DNA of 64,000 bases from NCBI GenBank assembly GCA_024637035.1, contig JAGXFW010000014.1, forward strand, positions 124,001 to 188,000, in the 5' to 3' direction. Every line of letters begins with the position of its first letter. Position 1 is the stretch's first letter. Below the pieces are notes generated by a model. That model saw nothing but the letters and a program-made list of their open reading frames with translations. It had not been told where the DNA came from and made no database searches. The DNA is from Actinomycetes bacterium. GTDB lineage: Bacteria > Actinomycetota > Thermoleophilia > RBG-16-64-13. The position numbers and the translations under genes are program-made. Of this stretch, positions 6,298 to 26,491 are shown one piece after another.

Positions 6298-7203
6298 ATG
6301 CATCCGACCTTGGTGGACATCGAGATCGGCGGGTGGGCGCTCCATCTGAGCGCCTACTCGACGATGCTCGTACTAGCGGGGATCGTCGGCCTCACCGCGA
6401 CGACGTTGGTGGCCGGCCGTCTGGGCCTGCCCCGGCGCCGCGTGTTCGCCCTTTTCGCGGCGGTGTTGACCGCCGGAGTGGTGGGCGCCCGGCTGTTCCA
6501 CGCCGCCACCAACCTGCAGTTGTACGCCGCGGAGCCTGCCAGGCTCTGGTCCACCGGCGCCACGGGGTTCGCGCTCTACGGCGGTCTGGTGACCGGAGCG
6601 CTCACCGGAGTCGTGCTCGCCCGCGGCATGCGGCTGCCCGCGTGGCGACTGGCGGATGCCGCCGCTGTGGGCATGGGGCTCGGCATCGCGATCAACCGCG
6701 TGGGATGCTTCCTCCAGGGATGCTGCTACGGTCACCCCACCGAGCTGCCCTGGGGCGTGGTGTTCCCGCCCGGGAGCCCAGCCTGGGCGCGTCAGATGAT
6801 GGAGGGGGACCCGGGCGTGGGCGGCGACGGACTGCTCGCCAACCTGCTTGGCAGGGGAGCGGCGTTGACCAACCACCCAGTCCAGCCGACCCAGCTCTAC
6901 GAACTGCTCGCCGCGCTGGGCGCGGTCGGGCTGGTAGTCTTCCTGTTGCGTCGGAACGCCCGCGCGGGGGCCCCCTTTCTCGCCGCCGCGCTGTGGTTCA
7001 CCGCCTTCCGCATGGCGAACGCGCAACTCCGTTGGACGCCGACGACCCTCACCGCGCCGGCCTGGTTCTACCCGGCTTTCTACCTCGCGCTTCTCGCGCT
7101 GTTCGCCGGGCTGCTGGTCTGGCGCCTGAGTCGTGCGCCCGTGTGCCGGGAAGAGCAAGCACCGTCCGCGACAACCGCCGGCAGGCCCATAGCTTCGATG
7201 TGA
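6298..7203 (+). CDS. Prolipoprotein diacylglyceryl transferase (Lgt) family membrane protein
   Basis: Polytopic membrane protein of 301 residues with the Lgt architecture: short N-terminus, several hydrophobic helices, GARLFHAATNL, the central INRVGCFLQGCCYGHPTELPWG and HPVQPTQLYE. Canonical Lgt moves diacylglycerol onto lipobox Cys. This protein has the Cys-rich GCFLQGCCYG signature of the Lgt-like subgroup in place of the classic HGGLxG/GRxGNF motifs, so true lipoprotein transferase activity is uncertain. Preceded by GGAGGGCGGTCGG and only 28 nt from the protease, suggesting co-transcription. Confidence 0.85.
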   Translation: MHPTLVDIEIGGWALHLSAYSTMLVLAGIVGLTATTLVAGRLGLPRRRVFALFAAVLTAGVVGARLFHAATNLQLYAAEPARLWSTGATGFALYGGLVTGALTGVVLARGMRLPAWRLADAAAVGMGLGIAINRVGCFLQGCCYGHPTELPWGVVFPPGSPAWARQMMEGDPGVGGDGLLANLLGRGAALTNHPVQPTQLYELLAALGAVGLVVFLLRRNARAGAPFLAAALWFTAFRMANAQLRWTPTTLTAPAWFYPAFYLALLALFAGLLVWRLSRAPVCREEQAPSATTAGRPIASM

Positions 7204-17880: not shown

Positions 17881-18022
17881 ACTGAGCAAACTCTGATGTG
17901 CCACGACCGTCTCTCCCCCCCTCGACTCGAGGGATGTCGCATGGTCACCGAGCAATCGCGCTGGATAGATCATCGCGCCCGAAAGCCCCCGTGTCCCTCA
18001 GACCTTGGTCCCATCTTGGCAG

Positions 18023-18036
18023 CGAACAAATGTTCG
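18023..18036 (+). promoter_or_regulatory. LexA (SOS) box 1 of dnaE2
   Basis: CGAACAAATGTTCG is a perfect-arm match to the Gram-positive LexA box CGAAC-N4-GTTCG, 117 bases before the first in-frame start codon of the polymerase gene. Confidence 0.8.
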
Positions 18037-18090
18037 TATACACTACGCCTCCCCCCACTTCTGTCCGAGGGGATCGGTACAGTGTTCTAG

Positions 18091-18104
18091 CGAACATACG
18101 TTCA
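18091..18104 (+). promoter_or_regulatory. LexA (SOS) box 2 of dnaE2
   Basis: CGAACATACGTTCA matches the LexA box except for the last base. Two boxes 68 bp apart (6.5 helical turns) suggest tight SOS repression of the polymerase gene. Confidence 0.8.
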
Positions 18105-18139
18105 CACTAGGGAGCAACATACGATGCATTTTCTGATAA

Positions 18140-21100
18140 TTGCACGTTTCCTTGCTATGCCGTCGAACCGGTCGTGAGAGCCTCGACATACACGTGTGGA
18201 ACCCGACTGTGAGCGGCGCCGGGCTGAACGATCTCCCGATCCGGCGCATCCCGCCCAGTCATGACTACATCCGGCGCGACGGCACGGGGCCCAAGGACGG
18301 CTGGGCCCGCGGCCCGGCGGACCCCGGGCCGGCTCCCACCCGCGACGCCACCCCTCCCACGCCGGGCGCAGGCCCCACCAGCCACCGACCGCCGCGGAAG
18401 GATGACAGCGCTCCGCCCCCCCACGACGATCACCCTCCCGGCGACTCAGGCACCGGGTCTCACGGTGGCACCGCGGCCGCCCCGTTCGTGCACCTGCACG
18501 TGCACTCCAACTTCAGCTTCCTCGACGGAGGCAGCCGCATCGATGAGTTGGTCGAGCGGGCGGTGGAGTTGGGGCAGCCCGCCCTCGCCCTCACCGATCA
18601 CGACGGCCTCTACAGCGCCGTGCGCTTCGCCAAGGCCTGCCTGCGCCGCGGCGTGCATCCCATCTTCGGGGTCGAGGTGTGCGTGGAACCTCTGGCGGGG
18701 GAACCTCCCGCCGGCGGTGACACAGCGATGCCATCCGACGAGAGTGGCGACGCCCCGCCTCTCTCCAGCCCTCAGCACCCCTACCACCTGGTGCTGCTCG
18801 CCGAGAGCCGCGAGGGCTACGCCAATCTCTGCCGATTGGTCTCCGCCGCCCACCTGGCGATCCCCGAGCGCGACCGTCCCCCCACCCTCACCGCCGCCCA
18901 GTTACGCGAACGGCGCGAGGGCGTCATCTGCCTCACGGGATGCCGTCAGGGAGAGGTGGGCCGCCTGGTCGACGCCGGCCGCGATGACGAAGCCCGCCGC
19001 GCCCTCGGTGTGCTCCGCGACATCTACGGCTCCGACCACCTCTTCGTCGAGGTGCAGCACTTCGGCTACCAACCGCATCGAGAGGCCGAGGCCGGTCAGC
19101 ACGGAGCCTCCGTCTACCACAAGGAGCGCGGCGAAGACGGGCGTCTGCGCCATTTCCGCGACGACGGCCGCCCCGCGGGCGGCGGCGCCTCGGGTGGAGC
19201 CTCCGAGTGCCGAGCCCCCCGTGATCCCGGGAATCTGCGCCCACAGTCCCGCCGCGGATCCGGACCCGGCGACGACTTCCCTTCCGCCTATCGTGCAAGT
19301 CTATTGCGTCATCAGATATTTGCAACGTCTCGTGCATCCAAGGGGCGGACGGGTGCCCACACACGCCCTCGCCCCGACCTCCCCGAGGGTCATCCTCAGC
19401 GTCTAAACCCCGCCGATTACGACGTAGGCTTCCATCCCGAGGGTCCCGCCTGGGCCCTGGCCTGCTTCACCTACTGCGACCGATTACTGCAACTGGCCCG
19501 GGAATACGGCCTCCCCGCTCTCCTCACCACCGACGCCCACTACGCCCGGCCCGACGATCGGGCCACGCACCTGGTCTGCCGCGCCGCCGGTCGCGACCAG
19601 CCGCTCTCCGGCTACCCCCCCACCGTGCCGGGAGTCTGCTGCCTTCGCCCTCGAGCTGAACTGGAGGTCGAGCTTCAGCCCCTCATCGACTTGCATTGTC
19701 ATTGCATTGCAACTTCTGTTGCAGTTTCGAGTGATGAGGAAGGCGCGGGAGGGATGGCGGCGGAGGCGGGTAGTGGCGGTGCCGACTCAGAGCCGGCGGA
19801 TAGAGTGGCGGTGGGCGTGGCGGCGCACCCGGGCCCACCCCTCCTCCTTGACTCCCCCCTCGACATCCCCGCCCGGATCGCCTCCCGCTGCCAGGTGGAT
19901 CTCGAACTCGGCACCTACCACTTCCCCGAGGTGGCTCTCCCTCCCGATGAGACCGCTTACTCCCTCCTGGCCAAGCGCTGCTTCCGGGGCATCGAGCGCT
20001 TCTACCGGCCGGTGCCGCCCCGGGCGGTGGAGCTCCTCGACCACGAACTCGCCATGATCGAGCAGATGGGCTTCGCCCACTACTTCCTGGTGGTGCACGA
20101 CATCGTGCGCTGGGCCCGGGCCCGGGGCATCGCCTGTTCGGGACGGGGGTCGGCCGGCAACTCCCTGGTGTGTCACGTGCTCGACATCACCGCCTCGGAG
20201 CCCATCCGTCACAACCTGCTCTTCGAACGGTTCCTCAACCCGAACCGCCGCGAGATGCCCGACATCGACGTGGATTTCTGCAGCACCCGCCGCGACGAGG
20301 TGATCGACCACATCTACGAGACCTTCGGCGAGAACAACGTGGCCGTGGTGGCCAACGTCAACACTATGTCGCCGCGCGTGGCCGTGCGCATCGTCGCCGA
20401 GGCGGTGGGCTTCGCTCCCACCGAGATCAACACCCTCGCCAAGAACGTGCCCCGCCACGGCGACGCCGCCAAGATGCGCGACTACCTGGCCGGCGAGTGG
20501 CCCGAGCTGGCCGAGAGCCCGCTGCAGGACGAGTCCAGCTACGGACCCCTGCTCGACCTAGTGGCGCGCCTCGACGGCTACCCCATCCACCTGGGCACGC
20601 ACCTGGGGGGCTTCGTCATCGCCGACAAGCCCATCACCTACTACGCCCCCCTGCAGTGGGCGGCCAAGGGGGTGGCGGTGGTGCAGCTGAACAAGGACGA
20701 CGTGGCCGACCTCGGCTTGGTCAAGATGGACATCCTCGGCCTGCGCACCCACTCGGCCGTCTCGGAGACGGTGCACATCGTGCGTCGGCGCACCGGCCTC
20801 ACACTCGACCCCTACGCCCTCACCCCCGCCGACCCCGCCGCCTACGAGATCATCTCGAACGGCGGCTCCATCGGCCTCTTCCAGCTGGAGTCGGCCGGTC
20901 AGCGCAACCTGGCCTCGCGCCTGCAGGAGCGCACCTTCGACGACATCATCGCCGCCATCGCCCTCTACCGTCCCGGCCCGCTGGAGGCCGAGATGATCGG
21001 TCCCTTCATCGACCGCCGTTGGGGATACGAGGAGGTCAGCCTGCCCCACCCCTCCCTGGCGGAGGCTCTGGGCGACACCTACGGGGTCATCCTCTACCAG

Positions 21101-22948
21101 GAGCAGGTGCTCCGCGTGGCTCAGCTGGTGGCCGGGTTCACTCCCGCCGAGGGCGACTCCCTACGCCGCGCCATGACCCGCGAGAAGAGCCGCGAGGAGA
21201 TGGCCAAGATCGGCGCCACCTTCGTGCACCACGCTATGGCCCGCGACGTGCCCGAGGAGGCGGCCCGCGAGGTCTTCCGCCAGCTGGAGGGCTTCGCCGC
21301 CTACGGTTTCAACAAGAGCCACTCGGTGTGCTTCGCCGTCATCAGTTACGCCACCGCCTACTTGAAGGCCCACTACCCGGCCGAGTTCCTCTGCGCCGTG
21401 CAGAACAACCAGCCCATGGGCTTCTACACCCCGCGCACGGTGCTCAACGACGCCCGCCGCTTCGGCCTCGCGGTGCGCCCCTTGGACATCAACCTCTCCG
21501 GGCGAGGCTTCACCGTGGAAGACGAGGAGCCCCCCGACCCCCGCGTCTACGACCCCTTCCTCCCCGCCTGGACCGCCGCCCACGACTGGGGCCTCACTCC
21601 CGCCGACCTGGCCGACCTCGAGACCGTACACGGCGAAGGCGGAGTCGGCGAGCCCATGCAGGCAGGAGGAGCTTCTTTTCTTCTCAAGAATGATGCGTTG
21701 CCGGCGCCGGCAACCACGCCACCCACCCCGGCCGAGCCACCGCCCGCGACCGGAGGCCACGCCACCCTCGCCACGAACGCCACCCCCGCCACGAACGCCA
21801 CCCCAGCCACGAACAGCGACCCTCACCCCGGTGATCCCCACCCCGGCGATCTCATCCTCCCCCACGCCGACCGCGCCCGGGCTCGGGCCGGGGTGGCCCC
21901 CGACGCCTGCCTGGCTCCGGAGGGAGCCCTCGCTCCCGGCGCGGGCCAGGCCCTGCGGGTGGGTCTGCGCTACCTCAAGCAGATGTCGGAGCGAGCCCTC
22001 CGGGCCATCGAGGAGGAGCGCCGCTTCGCCCCCTTCGCGAACTTCGAAGATTTCTATCTGCGCACCCGCGTGGAGTATCCGGTGGCCGAGAACCTGATCC
22101 GGGTGGGCGCCTTCGACTCGCTCGAACCCGATCGCACCGAGCTCCTCTGGCGCCTGCCTCTGCTCCACGACCGCCGCGAGGCGCTCGCCGCCGGCGGAGG
22201 CGGCAACCGGGGGCAGCTGCGGGCCTTCTTCTCCGAGCCGGTACGCTCAGGGCTCACCCGCGACTGGACCACCGAGGACAAGGTGCGCGTCGAGCTCGAA
22301 CTCCTGGGGCTCACCGTCACCTGCCACCCCCTCGATCTCTACCGGGAGCAGCTGGACGCCCTGGGCGTCACCCCCAGCTACGGCCTGCCCACCCTGGGCG
22401 ACGAGGTGCCGGTGACCGTGGCCGGCGTCTACGAGCGAGCCCAGAACCCCTGGATGCGCTCCGGCCGGCGCACCATGTTCCTCACCCTCGAGGATGCCTA
22501 CGGCCTCTTCGAATGCGTGGTCTTCGAGAGCAAACTGGCGAGGTACGCCCCGGTGGTGGCCCGCGCCACCTACTTCCTCGTCCGCGGCCGCCTGCAGAAC
22601 AACCGCAAGCGCGGCCTGGCCATCGTGGTGGAGGAGATCCGCGACCTGGAGGAGGTGCTCACCGGCATGCAGCAACGGGCGGCTGCCGCAGCCGCCAAGA
22701 TGGTGTCCATGACGGCCGGCGCCGGGACCGCCGGGACGGAGGGCGCGAACCTCACCTCAGACAAGCGGCCCGCCCGCCTCGGCCAGATCGTGGAACGGCC
22801 CACCTTCGCCGAGCACAAGCTCCTGGTGGCGGAACGCAAACAGACCCGCGTCGGCCACGAGCCGGAGGTCTACGGGCTGGGCACCAGCGACGGGAGGAAG
22901 CGGCCGCCCGGCGCAGGGACGTCGGCTATACCCAAGAAGGTGGGGTGA
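18140..22948 (+). CDS. dnaE2: Error-prone DNA polymerase III alpha subunit, DnaE2 type, with large insertions
   Basis: Translesion polymerase of the SOS response. Order: low-complexity N-terminus (about 115 residues), PHP domain (VHLHVHSNFSFLDGG, LALTDHDGLYSA), polymerase core with GRGSAGNSLVCHVLDI and the catalytic PDIDVDFCSTRRDEV, EKSREEMAKIG, FNKSHSVCFAVISYATAYLK, and the DnaE2-typical QPMGFYTPRTVLNDARRFG. A helix-hairpin-helix region and C-terminal OB fold (VTVAGVYERAQNPWMRSGRR) follow. At 1602 residues it is about 500 longer than usual DnaE2 because of three inserts: within PHP (near 19150-19420), near 19700-19850, and an Ala/Thr/Pro/Asn repeat near 21690-21870. The true start is unclear (TTG 18140, GTG 18194 or 18209); none has a good ribosome binding site. 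Confidence 0.9.
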   Translation: MHVSLLCRRTGRESLDIHVWNPTVSGAGLNDLPIRRIPPSHDYIRRDGTGPKDGWARGPADPGPAPTRDATPPTPGAGPTSHRPPRKDDSAPPPHDDHPPGDSGTGSHGGTAAAPFVHLHVHSNFSFLDGGSRIDELVERAVELGQPALALTDHDGLYSAVRFAKACLRRGVHPIFGVEVCVEPLAGEPPAGGDTAMPSDESGDAPPLSSPQHPYHLVLLAESREGYANLCRLVSAAHLAIPERDRPPTLTAAQLRERREGVICLTGCRQGEVGRLVDAGRDDEARRALGVLRDIYGSDHLFVEVQHFGYQPHREAEAGQHGASVYHKERGEDGRLRHFRDDGRPAGGGASGGASECRAPRDPGNLRPQSRRGSGPGDDFPSAYRASLLRHQIFATSRASKGRTGAHTRPRPDLPEGHPQRLNPADYDVGFHPEGPAWALACFTYCDRLLQLAREYGLPALLTTDAHYARPDDRATHLVCRAAGRDQPLSGYPPTVPGVCCLRPRAELEVELQPLIDLHCHCIATSVAVSSDEEGAGGMAAEAGSGGADSEPADRVAVGVAAHPGPPLLLDSPLDIPARIASRCQVDLELGTYHFPEVALPPDETAYSLLAKRCFRGIERFYRPVPPRAVELLDHELAMIEQMGFAHYFLVVHDIVRWARARGIACSGRGSAGNSLVCHVLDITASEPIRHNLLFERFLNPNRREMPDIDVDFCSTRRDEVIDHIYETFGENNVAVVANVNTMSPRVAVRIVAEAVGFAPTEINTLAKNVPRHGDAAKMRDYLAGEWPELAESPLQDESSYGPLLDLVARLDGYPIHLGTHLGGFVIADKPITYYAPLQWAAKGVAVVQLNKDDVADLGLVKMDILGLRTHSAVSETVHIVRRRTGLTLDPYALTPADPAAYEIISNGGSIGLFQLESAGQRNLASRLQERTFDDIIAAIALYRPGPLEAEMIGPFIDRRWGYEEVSLPHPSLAEALGDTYGVILYQEQVLRVAQLVAGFTPAEGDSLRRAMTREKSREEMAKIGATFVHHAMARDVPEEAAREVFRQLEGFAAYGFNKSHSVCFAVISYATAYLKAHYPAEFLCAVQNNQPMGFYTPRTVLNDARRFGLAVRPLDINLSGRGFTVEDEEPPDPRVYDPFLPAWTAAHDWGLTPADLADLETVHGEGGVGEPMQAGGASFLLKNDALPAPATTPPTPAEPPPATGGHATLATNATPATNATPATNSDPHPGDPHPGDLILPHADRARARAGVAPDACLAPEGALAPGAGQALRVGLRYLKQMSERALRAIEEERRFAPFANFEDFYLRTRVEYPVAENLIRVGAFDSLEPDRTELLWRLPLLHDRREALAAGGGGNRGQLRAFFSEPVRSGLTRDWTTEDKVRVELELLGLTVTCHPLDLYREQLDALGVTPSYGLPTLGDEVPVTVAGVYERAQNPWMRSGRRTMFLTLEDAYGLFECVVFESKLARYAPVVARATYFLVRGRLQNNRKRGLAIVVEEIRDLEEVLTGMQQRAAAAAAKMVSMTAGAGTAGTEGANLTSDKRPARLGQIVERPTFAEHKLLVAERKQTRVGHEPEVYGLGTSDGRKRPPGAGTSAIPKKVG

Positions 22949-23016
22949 ACCTCCGCGCACCGGTCCTACGTGCCGCTCGGCCGAGCTCCCGTGCGTTAGG
23001 ACGCAGAAGAGATCAC

Positions 23017-23352
23017 CTAGGGAGAAGGAGCGAGGGGCCCGAGGGCAGCACCCAGTGCCGGCAGGTCTCGAGCAATAGTCATCCACACTTCCTGGAGATC
23101 GACGTCGTCGTATCCGTGAATGAGCTTGTCGCGCATGCCGGCTATCAGCTTCCACGGCACTTGAGGATGCTCCGACTTGAAGCCGGTCGAGAGGCGCTTG
23201 ACCGCCTCACCGATCACAAGGAGCTGATGAAGGACCGCGGACTGCGTCTTGACGTCCTCTAGGAAGGCCGCCTCGGTCATCCCGTCCACGAACTCCTGCG
23301 CAAGGAGGGTCGCCCGGACGACGTCTAGGAGAACGGCCTCATCTCGCGGCAT
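23017..23352 (-). CDS. hepT: HepT-like ribonuclease toxin (DUF86)
   Basis: 111 residues from ATG 23352, overlapping the upstream nucleotidyltransferase gene by 14 bases. The all-helical HEPN fold has the RNase motif R-x4-H-x-Y as RDKLIHGYDDVD, followed by the family ending VDLQEVWMTIARDLPALG. HepT cleaves RNA and is silenced when its partner MntA adenylylates the Tyr in that motif (shown for characterised HepT/MntA pairs). Toxin second, antitoxin first, as usual for the pair. Confidence 0.9.
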   Translation of the reverse strand: MPRDEAVLLDVVRATLLAQEFVDGMTEAAFLEDVKTQSAVLHQLLVIGEAVKRLSTGFKSEHPQVPWKLIAGMRDKLIHGYDDVDLQEVWMTIARDLPALGAALGPLAPSP

Positions 23353-23653
23353 AGAACAGCTCAGCGGAGGAGAGGATCTCGTCACGCCGGATCCGGTTCG
23401 GACTGGCCTCCACAGCGCGCCGGCTGACCAAGTCGATATCGCGGCCTAGTATCGCGGACAGCTCGTGGGTCATGGCGATGTGGTCGAGCAAGCTCCAGTC
23501 GGCGCCTGGCTCGAACGTCACCAGGAGATCGATATCGCTGCCCGGTTGGAGATCACCTCGCGCCGCAGAGCCGAACAACGACAACTGCGTGATCCTCCAG
23601 GCCTCGCAAAACCGGACCAAGACATCATGGTCAATGTGATCGATGCCTATCAC
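23339..23653 (-). CDS. mntA: MntA-like minimal nucleotidyltransferase antitoxin
   Basis: 104 residues from GTG 23653 (GGCGAGG upstream). Polymerase-beta-type nucleotidyltransferase with the catalytic motif LFGSAARGDLQPGSDIDLLV (G-S-x10-D-x-D) and the later DIDLVSRR third acidic site. It should AMPylate HepT, encoded by the overlapping downstream gene. A longer frame upstream to 23920 has no family similarity and is probably not translated. Confidence 0.88.
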   Translation of the reverse strand: MIGIDHIDHDVLVRFCEAWRITQLSLFGSAARGDLQPGSDIDLLVTFEPGADWSLLDHIAMTHELSAILGRDIDLVSRRAVEASPNRIRRDEILSSAELFYAAR

Positions 23654-23780
23654 GATAGCCTCGCCACTACAGCTCTCCCCGGCATGAAGATATTCCCTTG
23701 CTCCAGAGCATTGTAGCGAAGGGGGTTGCGCGGAACAAAGCGGACGGTGTCCAAGCGCCTGGGGAGAGCTGGCGTAAGGT

Positions 23781-23993
23781 TCAGGAAACGGCGATGTACT
23801 CGGCTGACGCTCGCGACTCTGGGATTGGGAGCCGGTCCTCGCGGAGGCCTTCGACATGCATCTGAACGGCTTCGGCCATGCGCTGCCTGAGTACCTGACG
23901 TGAGCCGCCGGTGGCCACACACCCGGGGAGGTCGGGCGAATAGGCCGAATAGCCAGCCTCCACCTGCTCGATCACGATAAGGAACCTGTGCAT
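23781..23993 (-). CDS. Orphan HicB-like antitoxin
   Basis: 70 residues from ATG 23993 (AAAGGG upstream). HicB fold: MHRFLIVIEQVEAGYSAYSPDLPGCVATGGSRQVLRQRMAEAVQMHVEGLREDRLPIPES. No HicA lies on either side: upstream is a PIN toxin, downstream MntA/HepT. A longer TTG start at 24062 would overlap the PIN stop. It may be a solitary antitoxin or the leftover of a lost pair. Confidence 0.8.
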   Translation of the reverse strand: MHRFLIVIEQVEAGYSAYSPDLPGCVATGGSRQVLRQRMAEAVQMHVEGLREDRLPIPESRASAEYIAVS

Positions 23994-25615: not shown

Positions 25616-26491
25616 CTAGCTCACGACCAGATCTACCACGGTCGTTTCCAACGCCGCGGCGAGCCGCTCCAGGGTTTCGAGCGATGCGGCATGCGCCCCT
25701 CCCTCCAGGCGGGCGATGTTAGGTCGCCTGATGCCCGTTAGATCTGCCAACTGCTGCTGGGTCAATCCCCTCTTCTTCCTCTGGGCGCGGACCCGGCCGG
25801 CAATACGACGAGCCGATTCCTCACGAGTTGCGAAGACAGCGGGCCCGGCCCTGTGGTAGTCGTAGTTTTCGTCGGCCCAGTGCAGGACGTAGTCCCACGG
25901 CACCTCGAACCGGTTGCCGGACGACTGAAGCATCGATGCGGCACTTCCATTCAAGAGGAGCGTGATCTCATTGACCGCGCTGCCATCCGCCGACGGCAGC
26001 GCGCTGAGCGGCAGGGAGTACCTACATCCATCGGCAAACGTGAACGACAGAACTCTGCCGGACTTGACGAACGTGACGTCGATGATGCGGCGCGGGTCAG
26101 AAGGCCTGCCGATGTCCGCCAGCCGCTTCCGGACCGGACCGACGATCTCCTTAGAGATGTCCACGACATAGGAGACGGCCGGGAGAGGGCCGAACGAGGC
26201 GACCTGACCCAGATCCTCGGCCAGCCACACGTAGGTACCTTCTTGCGCGTGCGCCCCTCCAAAGGCCGGCTGATCGCCGCCTTCCGGCAGGACGGAACCG
26301 AGGTCGATGATCCAAAGGGATGTCCGGTGCAGACGAGGAACCTCGGCCAGGGAGGCAAAGACTTCGGCGTCACCTCCCGTCTCCACAAGCAGAAGATCGC
26401 GGATCTCGGGGCGACCCGTGACAACGGCCGTCATCCCTGCGAGCCCTCCTTGTACGGGATGGCGGGACTTGGCCTCGATTCCGGCCATCAC
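25616..26491 (-). CDS. XRE-family regulator fused to a DUF2442 domain (antitoxin-like)
   Basis: 291 residues. The first about 125 residues resemble no family I know (TGRPEIRDLLLVETGGDAEV to KRLADIGRP). A DUF2442-like domain follows (DVTFVKSGRVLSFTFADGCRYSLPLSAL to VPWDYVLHWADENYDY, about 138-210). A C-terminal XRE helix-turn-helix closes the protein (QRKKRGLTQQQLADLTGIRRPNIARLEGGAHAASLETLERLAAAL). DUF2442-XRE proteins accompany DUF4160 in predicted type II toxin-antitoxin pairs. The DUF4160 gene is directly upstream with overlapping stop/start. This part should be antitoxin and repressor. Confidence 0.8.
   Translation of the reverse strand: MMAGIEAKSRHPVQGGLAGMTAVVTGRPEIRDLLLVETGGDAEVFASLAEVPRLHRTSLWIIDLGSVLPEGGDQPAFGGAHAQEGTYVWLAEDLGQVASFGPLPAVSYVVDISKEIVGPVRKRLADIGRPSDPRRIIDVTFVKSGRVLSFTFADGCRYSLPLSALPSADGSAVNEITLLLNGSAASMLQSSGNRFEVPWDYVLHWADENYDYHRAGPAVFATREESARRIAGRVRAQRKKRGLTQQQLADLTGIRRPNIARLEGGAHAASLETLERLAAALETTVVDLVVS

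Follow-up and report, generated by a model that had tools for sequence, protein, structure and literature searches.

A recurring TGCA-box element in the variable loops of an oversized actinobacterial DnaE-type polymerase: candidate intragenic operators for an RpiR-family regulator

The locus described here raises the question of what the extra length of a DnaE-type polymerase is for. It lies in the window, i.e. the whole stretch of 64,000 nucleotides that was analysed, where a single open frame occupies positions 18140-22948 of the plus strand and encodes 1602 aa when counted from TTG 18140. A later start, GTG 18209, is the likely one and was picked because the residues that follow it, VSGAGLN..., are also present in the related locus L009; the protein would then comprise 1579 aa. 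A scan of the frame found the domains listed in Table 1, which place the protein among the C-family DnaE polymerases. For comparison, the DnaE1 frame of the same genome measures 1166 aa between its stops, and the proteins of three genes annotated as ImuC/DnaE2 have 1049-1087 aa, so the excess amounts to about 410-530 aa. A first-pass annotation of this DNA had put it at roughly 500 residues, within a reading frame that stays open, and our measurements agree on both points.

Table 1 Features of the polymerase locus (positions in the window).
Feature	Position	Strand	Basis and remarks
Promoter-like TTGGCA-N17-TACACT	18016..18044	+	encloses LexA box 1; 1 found vs 0.2 expected from shuffles
LexA (SOS) box 1, CGAACAAATGTTCG	18023..18036	+	pattern match; similar boxes upstream in relatives
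LexA box 2, CGAACATACGTTCA	18091..18104	+	pattern match; similar boxes upstream in relatives
Leader operator element (putative), four-part	18113..18156	+	AGCA-N8-TGCA-N12-TGCA-N8-TGCT, two mismatches
Short leader frame, MHFLIIARFLAMPSNRS and stop	18124..18177	+	by eye; GGAG upstream; out of the polymerase frame
dnaE-type polymerase gene	18209..22948	+	1579 aa from the likely start; PHP, DNA_pol3_alpha, finger, HhH_6, OB
Insert 1	19070..19402	+	aa 311-421, PHP domain loop; anchors, relatives, low pLDDT
Intragenic element 1, TTGCGTCATCAGATATTTGCAACGTCTCGTGCA	19304..19336	+	in insert 1; 2 mismatches vs the pattern
Insert 2	19616..19876	+	aa 493-579; anchors, relatives, low pLDDT
Intragenic element 2, TTGCATTGTCATTGCATTGCAACTTCTGTTGCA	19691..19723	+	in insert 2; no mismatch vs the pattern
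Insert 3	21521..21952	+	aa 1128-1271, between the finger and HhH domains

The same annotation had located three poorly conserved inserts in the protein, and had attributed odd base use to the one in the PHP domain. Alignment to DnaE chains of known structure gave matched blocks with unmatched stretches at these sites, and when the inserts were measured as the variable stretches between conserved anchors, the earlier coordinates fell within them. The inserts of the window span 87-144 aa between anchors; relatives carry inserts at the same three places but of differing lengths, and insert 1 ranges from 38 to 111 aa among 10 genes, its anchors not having been located in an eleventh. The low conservation was borne out. 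So was the odd base use: in 150-bp intervals, third-position GC is 0.54-0.56 at 19190 and 19265, 0.52 at 19640 and 0.68 at 21590, compared with mostly 0.8-1.0 in the remaining polymerase gene. For the PHP region, an AlphaFold prediction covering 537 residues and based on 9 sequences had a mean pLDDT of 52.8 and a pTM of 0.57 and supports only the PHP fold; Foldseek pairs the model with PDB chains of DnaE (E 6e-14). Disordered segments get low-confidence structure predictions, and inserts 1 and 2 were predicted at low pLDDT, confidence being also depressed by the shallow alignment; the inserts are variable and probably unfolded or disordered. Insert 3 contains a YDPF...WGLT-like block in the aligned relatives except G009, where the insert has only 32 aa, and its remainder is variable. 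It includes an 18-bp tandem repeat of 3.1 copies (21759-21814), to which the NATPAT stretch, correctly described earlier as repeat-like, belongs. Insert 3 looks like a plain variable linker from the finger to the HhH domain.

A contig scan returned 15 loci, among which L005-L016, from actinobacterial or Thermoleophilia assemblies, encode the same polymerase type with 61-91% identity (L015 and L016 are partial). Clear polymerase matches were found in 12 of the 18 genomes of the window's family, and a thirteenth, G016, has the start of one at a contig end. The earlier label of DnaE2 is a loose one, unsupported by family score, tree or gene neighbourhood. The frame reaches 784 bits with the NCBIfam DnaE2/ImuC model PRK05672, below the curated cut-off of 939, and 803 bits with the DnaE model PRK05673, below its cut-off of 1002. 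No imuA/imuB cassette was found among the ten neighbouring frames scanned, and a single Y-family (IMS) gene, on a different contig and DinB-like by eye, was found in the genome. The polymerase groups with neither reference set: in a core tree of 26 rows with three ImuC references, its clade includes a plasmid DnaE from Rubrobacter (98/94) and stands apart from both the ImuC/DnaE2 references and DnaE1, in a tree whose deepest forks are weak (91/92) and where long branches meet. For this reason we avoid the name DnaE2 and speak of a DnaE-type polymerase behind LexA boxes. G009, with a frame of 1240 aa, is the first to branch within the group. The nearest outside relative in the tree, the Rubrobacter marinus plasmid DnaE (L155), has lexA nearby and is annotated with only about 864 aa.

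Outside any domain, the N-terminal peptide LPIRRIPPSHDYIRRDGTGPKDGWARGP (18233-18316) is kept in L005, L007, L008, L009 and L012, has a different version in L006 and L013 and is absent from L010, L011 and G009; it is perhaps a docking peptide. The heptapeptide AIPKKVG (22925-22945) forms the C-terminus in the window, L005-L011 and L015, with AIPKRVG in L006 and L015, and the G009 polymerase ends without it. Downstream on the minus strand, a frame with DUF2442 and a Cro/C1-type HTH domain (25616-26491) lies near a frame with a nucleotidyltransferase domain (23339-23920).

The earlier picture of the inserts had missed a DNA element, TTGCA-N12-TGCA-N7-TTGCA, which insert 1 and insert 2 share in their A/T-rich cores and which recurs in the 5' leader and at other genes. 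With at most 3 mismatches of the 14 fixed bases, it is present in the coding sequence of all 12 orthologues that cover the region (the window, L005-L014 and L092), with 23 copies in total. At this threshold, insert 2 of G009 and of L005 gave no copy; none was found in insert 1 of L013, and the L010 copy at 6679 belongs to insert 1, whose anchor was not located there. A perfect element is retained even in G009, the shortest orthologue, with an insert 1 of 38 aa. A TGCA-type element was searched for in insert 3 and is absent, so operators leave part of the extra length unexplained. The element, its recurrence and its positions are well supported. An RNA hairpin is not supported: the consensus fold of the element has 3 pairs, and in no pair do both bases vary.

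In the leader, a further copy of the element follows two LexA boxes (Table 1). Box matches with at most one mismatch number ten in the whole window against a shuffle mean of 3.3, so single one-mismatch boxes are weak evidence alone. With at most 2 mismatches, the leader element occurs in 8 of the 12 orthologues; besides these, L092 has a copy whose left box is displaced by one base, and none was found in L006, L011 and L013. Its four-box form is seen in the window, L005, L009 and L014, and the distance from the leader to insert 1 varies between 642 and 1364 bp across orthologues (hand arithmetic). The leader element of the window overlaps the short frame listed in Table 1, which is possibly a leader peptide with a Shine-Dalgarno-like GGAG. 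Frames with similar starts occur in L005, L009 and L014; those of L007, L008 and L010 end, as judged by eye, on the presumed polymerase start codon.

A candidate binder emerged from another gene of the family. All 18 genomes contain an RpiR-family gene, with HTH_6 and SIS domains found on the G015 copy, to which the gene of the window's own genome (G000:C33:96305-97162) is 66% identical. In all 17 genomes where DNA upstream of rpiR is available, one element stands directly before the conserved coding part, with 1 mismatch each (G000:C33:97190-97222 in the own genome), a score that none of 3000 random 200-mers reached. By eye, this element overlaps a -10-like box such as TTGTATAAT, and in some genomes it may also overlap an upstream in-frame ATG. 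An operator on a regulator's own promoter is a usual sign of autorepression. Because the operator overlaps a -10-like box directly before its gene, the RpiR protein is the most likely binder, and it would probably repress itself; we infer binding from the position of the site and its co-conservation in 17 of 17 genomes.

A matrix trained on the 17 rpiR-promoter sites alone, without any dnaE sequence, was used to scan 11 polymerase loci (191 kb, of which dnaE and the 150 bp before it make up 50 kb; L014, with its broken frames, was excluded). The best 39 hits (28 distinct elements, some on both strands) all lie in dnaE or its 150-bp leader. Because a pattern derived from dnaE had served to locate the training sites in the first place, the independence of this test is incomplete, and hits in orthologous loci do not count as separate events. 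The first hit outside dnaE and its leader scores 4.2 bits, and at the threshold of the 25th hit, shuffles preserving local composition gave 0-2 hits per round over 20 rounds. With a matrix made from the four-part and carB sites, the first 42 hits fall in dnaE and the 150 bp before it, and 20 shuffles gave zero hits at the 25th-hit threshold. A third model, R2, was built from alignment A3, whose 36 rows (17 rpiR, 15 four-part and 4 carB) also contain no dnaE sequence; the four-part rows represent 14 of 16 sites in hand-picked orientation, both orientations being used for L051, with L057 and L059 left out. Over 216 kb from 13 sources, R2 gave 20 hits at E<=1, every one of them within dnaE or its leader, and no hit in L007, L013 and L136. 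At E<=0.1 and with stricter filters, it had hits in 17 of the 18 family genomes and in none of 23 others of the class. The only hit in the own genome at E<=0.1 is the rpiR site; for the own dnaE elements, E values of 7e-6 to 0.02 were obtained with R1 alone, a model trained on them.

Genome-wide, the element has 15 matches with at most 2 mismatches on both strands of the own genome, as against 5 for the reversed pattern. The four-part form, with at most 1 mismatch, was found at 20 sites in 12 of the 18 family genomes, where the reversed-pattern control gave 1 site; in 23 genomes from the rest of the class it was found once, against 6 for the control. Gene calls were made around 15 of the 20 sites, and open frames were seen around one more (L057). 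The element lies antisense inside carB in four genomes and before ilvC in three (Pfam for one genome in each case), and before mraZ in three, of which G005 was identified by Pfam and G004 and G011 by eye; all that G015 and G001 share with the mraZ cases is a UvrD-like neighbour. It is found at a sigma-70-family gene, which we take to be Spo0H-like, in two genomes (the G003 site is weaker) and, in the own genome, before a MutY-like HhH-GPD gene and, in weaker form, at a panE-like gene (Pfam); by eye, G001 has a gene in a similar position. Another intragenic case, L130:4020-4052, lies antisense within the region of genome G002 that codes for a J-domain protein.

Such sites at unrelated genes, some of them intragenic, would suit a different protein, e.g. 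a nucleoid, segregation or RHH-type one, of which rpiR would merely be one target. The ArgR operator, considered alongside an RHH-type binder, is of the TTGCAT type with boxes closer together. We regard another binder as unlikely, since the site before rpiR is present in every genome where it could be sought and sits on a -10-like box, no other gene was seen with it in so many genomes, and strong sites are few per genome. Beyond the family, 2 of 3 rpiR relatives checked from f6 keep the inner pair TTGCA-N12-TGCA upstream at the same place, and it is absent upstream of four rpiR relatives from f5 and f7.

It is also quite improbable that the elements are functionless, i.e. mobile or repeat-derived sequences or low-complexity drift in a tolerant loop, as might be supposed from the variable lengths and repeats of the inserts, the three element copies in insert 2 of L007 and the linker-like insert 3. 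The TGCA boxes are retained while the sequence between them diverges freely, a contrast inflated by the copies having been selected by their boxes; the element recurs at orthologous places, above all before rpiR, and an Rfam scan of 17900-23000 gave no match up to E 1.

A further possibility is that the inserts matter as protein, through a repeated peptide, [LM]HxxxxAxx[IV]A, by which the polymerase would dock and which is kept in frame. The codon phase is the same for all 21 intragenic elements whose frames are readable, 20 of the 21 are best read in sense, and a similar peptide occurs in most orthologues. Such uniformity might resemble a peptide or RNA element, and common descent can explain it. 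Within the elements, 47 of 53 Ala codons are GCA, as against 129 of 1903 (7%) outside (L014 excluded), which argues that nucleotides, not residues, are kept; the codon pattern thus points to selection on the nucleotides. In addition, the leader copy in the window does not share the polymerase frame, the element is antisense in carB and stands in non-coding DNA before rpiR, and insert 1 of L006 reads better antisense. The peptide motif was dropped on codon use, the antisense carB copies and the out-of-frame leader copy, and we consider this reading very improbable. The Cys/His-containing HCHCIATS stretch pointed out by the first-pass annotation is present but proved to be the in-frame translation of the element at 19691, and nothing was found in favour of a metal site there.

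Finally, we give next to no credence to inteins, introns or assembly frame errors, which the abrupt changes in similarity and base use, and the earlier suggestion that the inserts might be removed as intervening elements, had brought up: relatives from other assemblies carry insertions of variable length at the same places, with frames open across them in L005-L012 and G009, scans of the polymerase against Pfam and NCBIfam up to E 1 found no intein family, splicing domain or homing endonuclease, the Rfam scan found no match, and no frame error was apparent in the insert regions on reading all three frames. Inserts shared with relatives were among the refuting conditions set by the annotation itself, and on that condition the intervening-element reading fails. 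The L014 polymerase gene (Thermoleophilia FR_37, a 4.6-Mb contig) is fragmented into several frames, possibly through its assembly; a second C-terminal polymerase piece, L016, lies elsewhere on that contig, and the split gene and this piece perhaps reflect indel errors or a duplication.

From these results, a mechanism involving RpiR may be proposed. Inserts 1 and 2 would be loops of the PHP region, specific to the lineage and probably disordered, whose DNA carries copies of an operator composed of TGCA boxes, spaced 12, 16 and 12 bp in the full form, with another copy in the leader downstream of the LexA boxes. It is probable, in our judgement, that the protein tolerates these loops and that they carry intragenic operators, RpiR being the most likely binder, so that the polymerase would answer to both DNA damage and metabolic state. 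By binding in the leader as well as within the gene, RpiR would repress the polymerase, either by looping or by blocking RNA polymerase; the variable distances between leader and insert 1 favour flexible looping or a roadblock over a fixed arrangement. A phosphosugar-type signal would relieve this repression and leave LexA in control, so that mutagenic repair would be gated by metabolic state plus LexA. The presumed effect of the elements on polymerase expression is proposed by analogy with RccR. A bolder proposal, that the loops were acquired and kept chiefly as DNA landing sites for a growth-state regulator, providing a mutagenic SOS polymerase with a second, metabolic brake over 1.6 kb of the gene, is a tentative one, and we lean slightly against it.

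Known systems show partial parallels. The RpiR-family protein RccR of Pseudomonas fluorescens uses operators of two palindromic half-sites with a spacing of either 15 or 28 bp, and has a site at its own gene and another 292 bp after the start codon of pckA, so that two operator spacings, an own-gene site and an intragenic site resemble the rpiR/dnaE case (PMC5489143). Its half-sites are TGTAGT/ACTACA instead of TGCA, however, its targets are carbon-metabolism genes, and the accessible part of that paper describes no protein insertions housing the sites (PMC5489143). HexR, of the same family, binds TTGT-N7-8-ACAA, i.e. short inverted half-sites with a spacing near that of TGCAA-N6-TTGCA, but differs in sequence and targets and has two boxes where three or four are found here (PMC5489143). 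Binding sites inside genes are also reported for E. coli sigma54, apparently not housed in extra protein loops as far as that account extends (PMC4591121). The ImuA-ImuB-DnaE2 (ImuC) mutasome likewise has a second DnaE-type polymerase behind LexA boxes; the present gene differs in belonging to a separate clade and in having no imuA/imuB in its neighbourhood. A targeted search found no literature linking dnaE2 to RpiR, and a search on 'intragenic operator' combined with related terms found nothing.

If the proposal is true, changes in protein length can be driven by regulatory DNA and not by protein function, coding insertions being selected for what their DNA binds, and this would be a trap for readers who take insertions as domains. 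It would also predict a regulon in this uncultured actinobacterial family, with rpiR and dnaE as widespread members and mraZ, ilvC, carB and the panE-like, sigma-70-family and MutY-like genes as further members in 1-4 genomes each, and it would tie DNA-damage mutagenesis to growth state.
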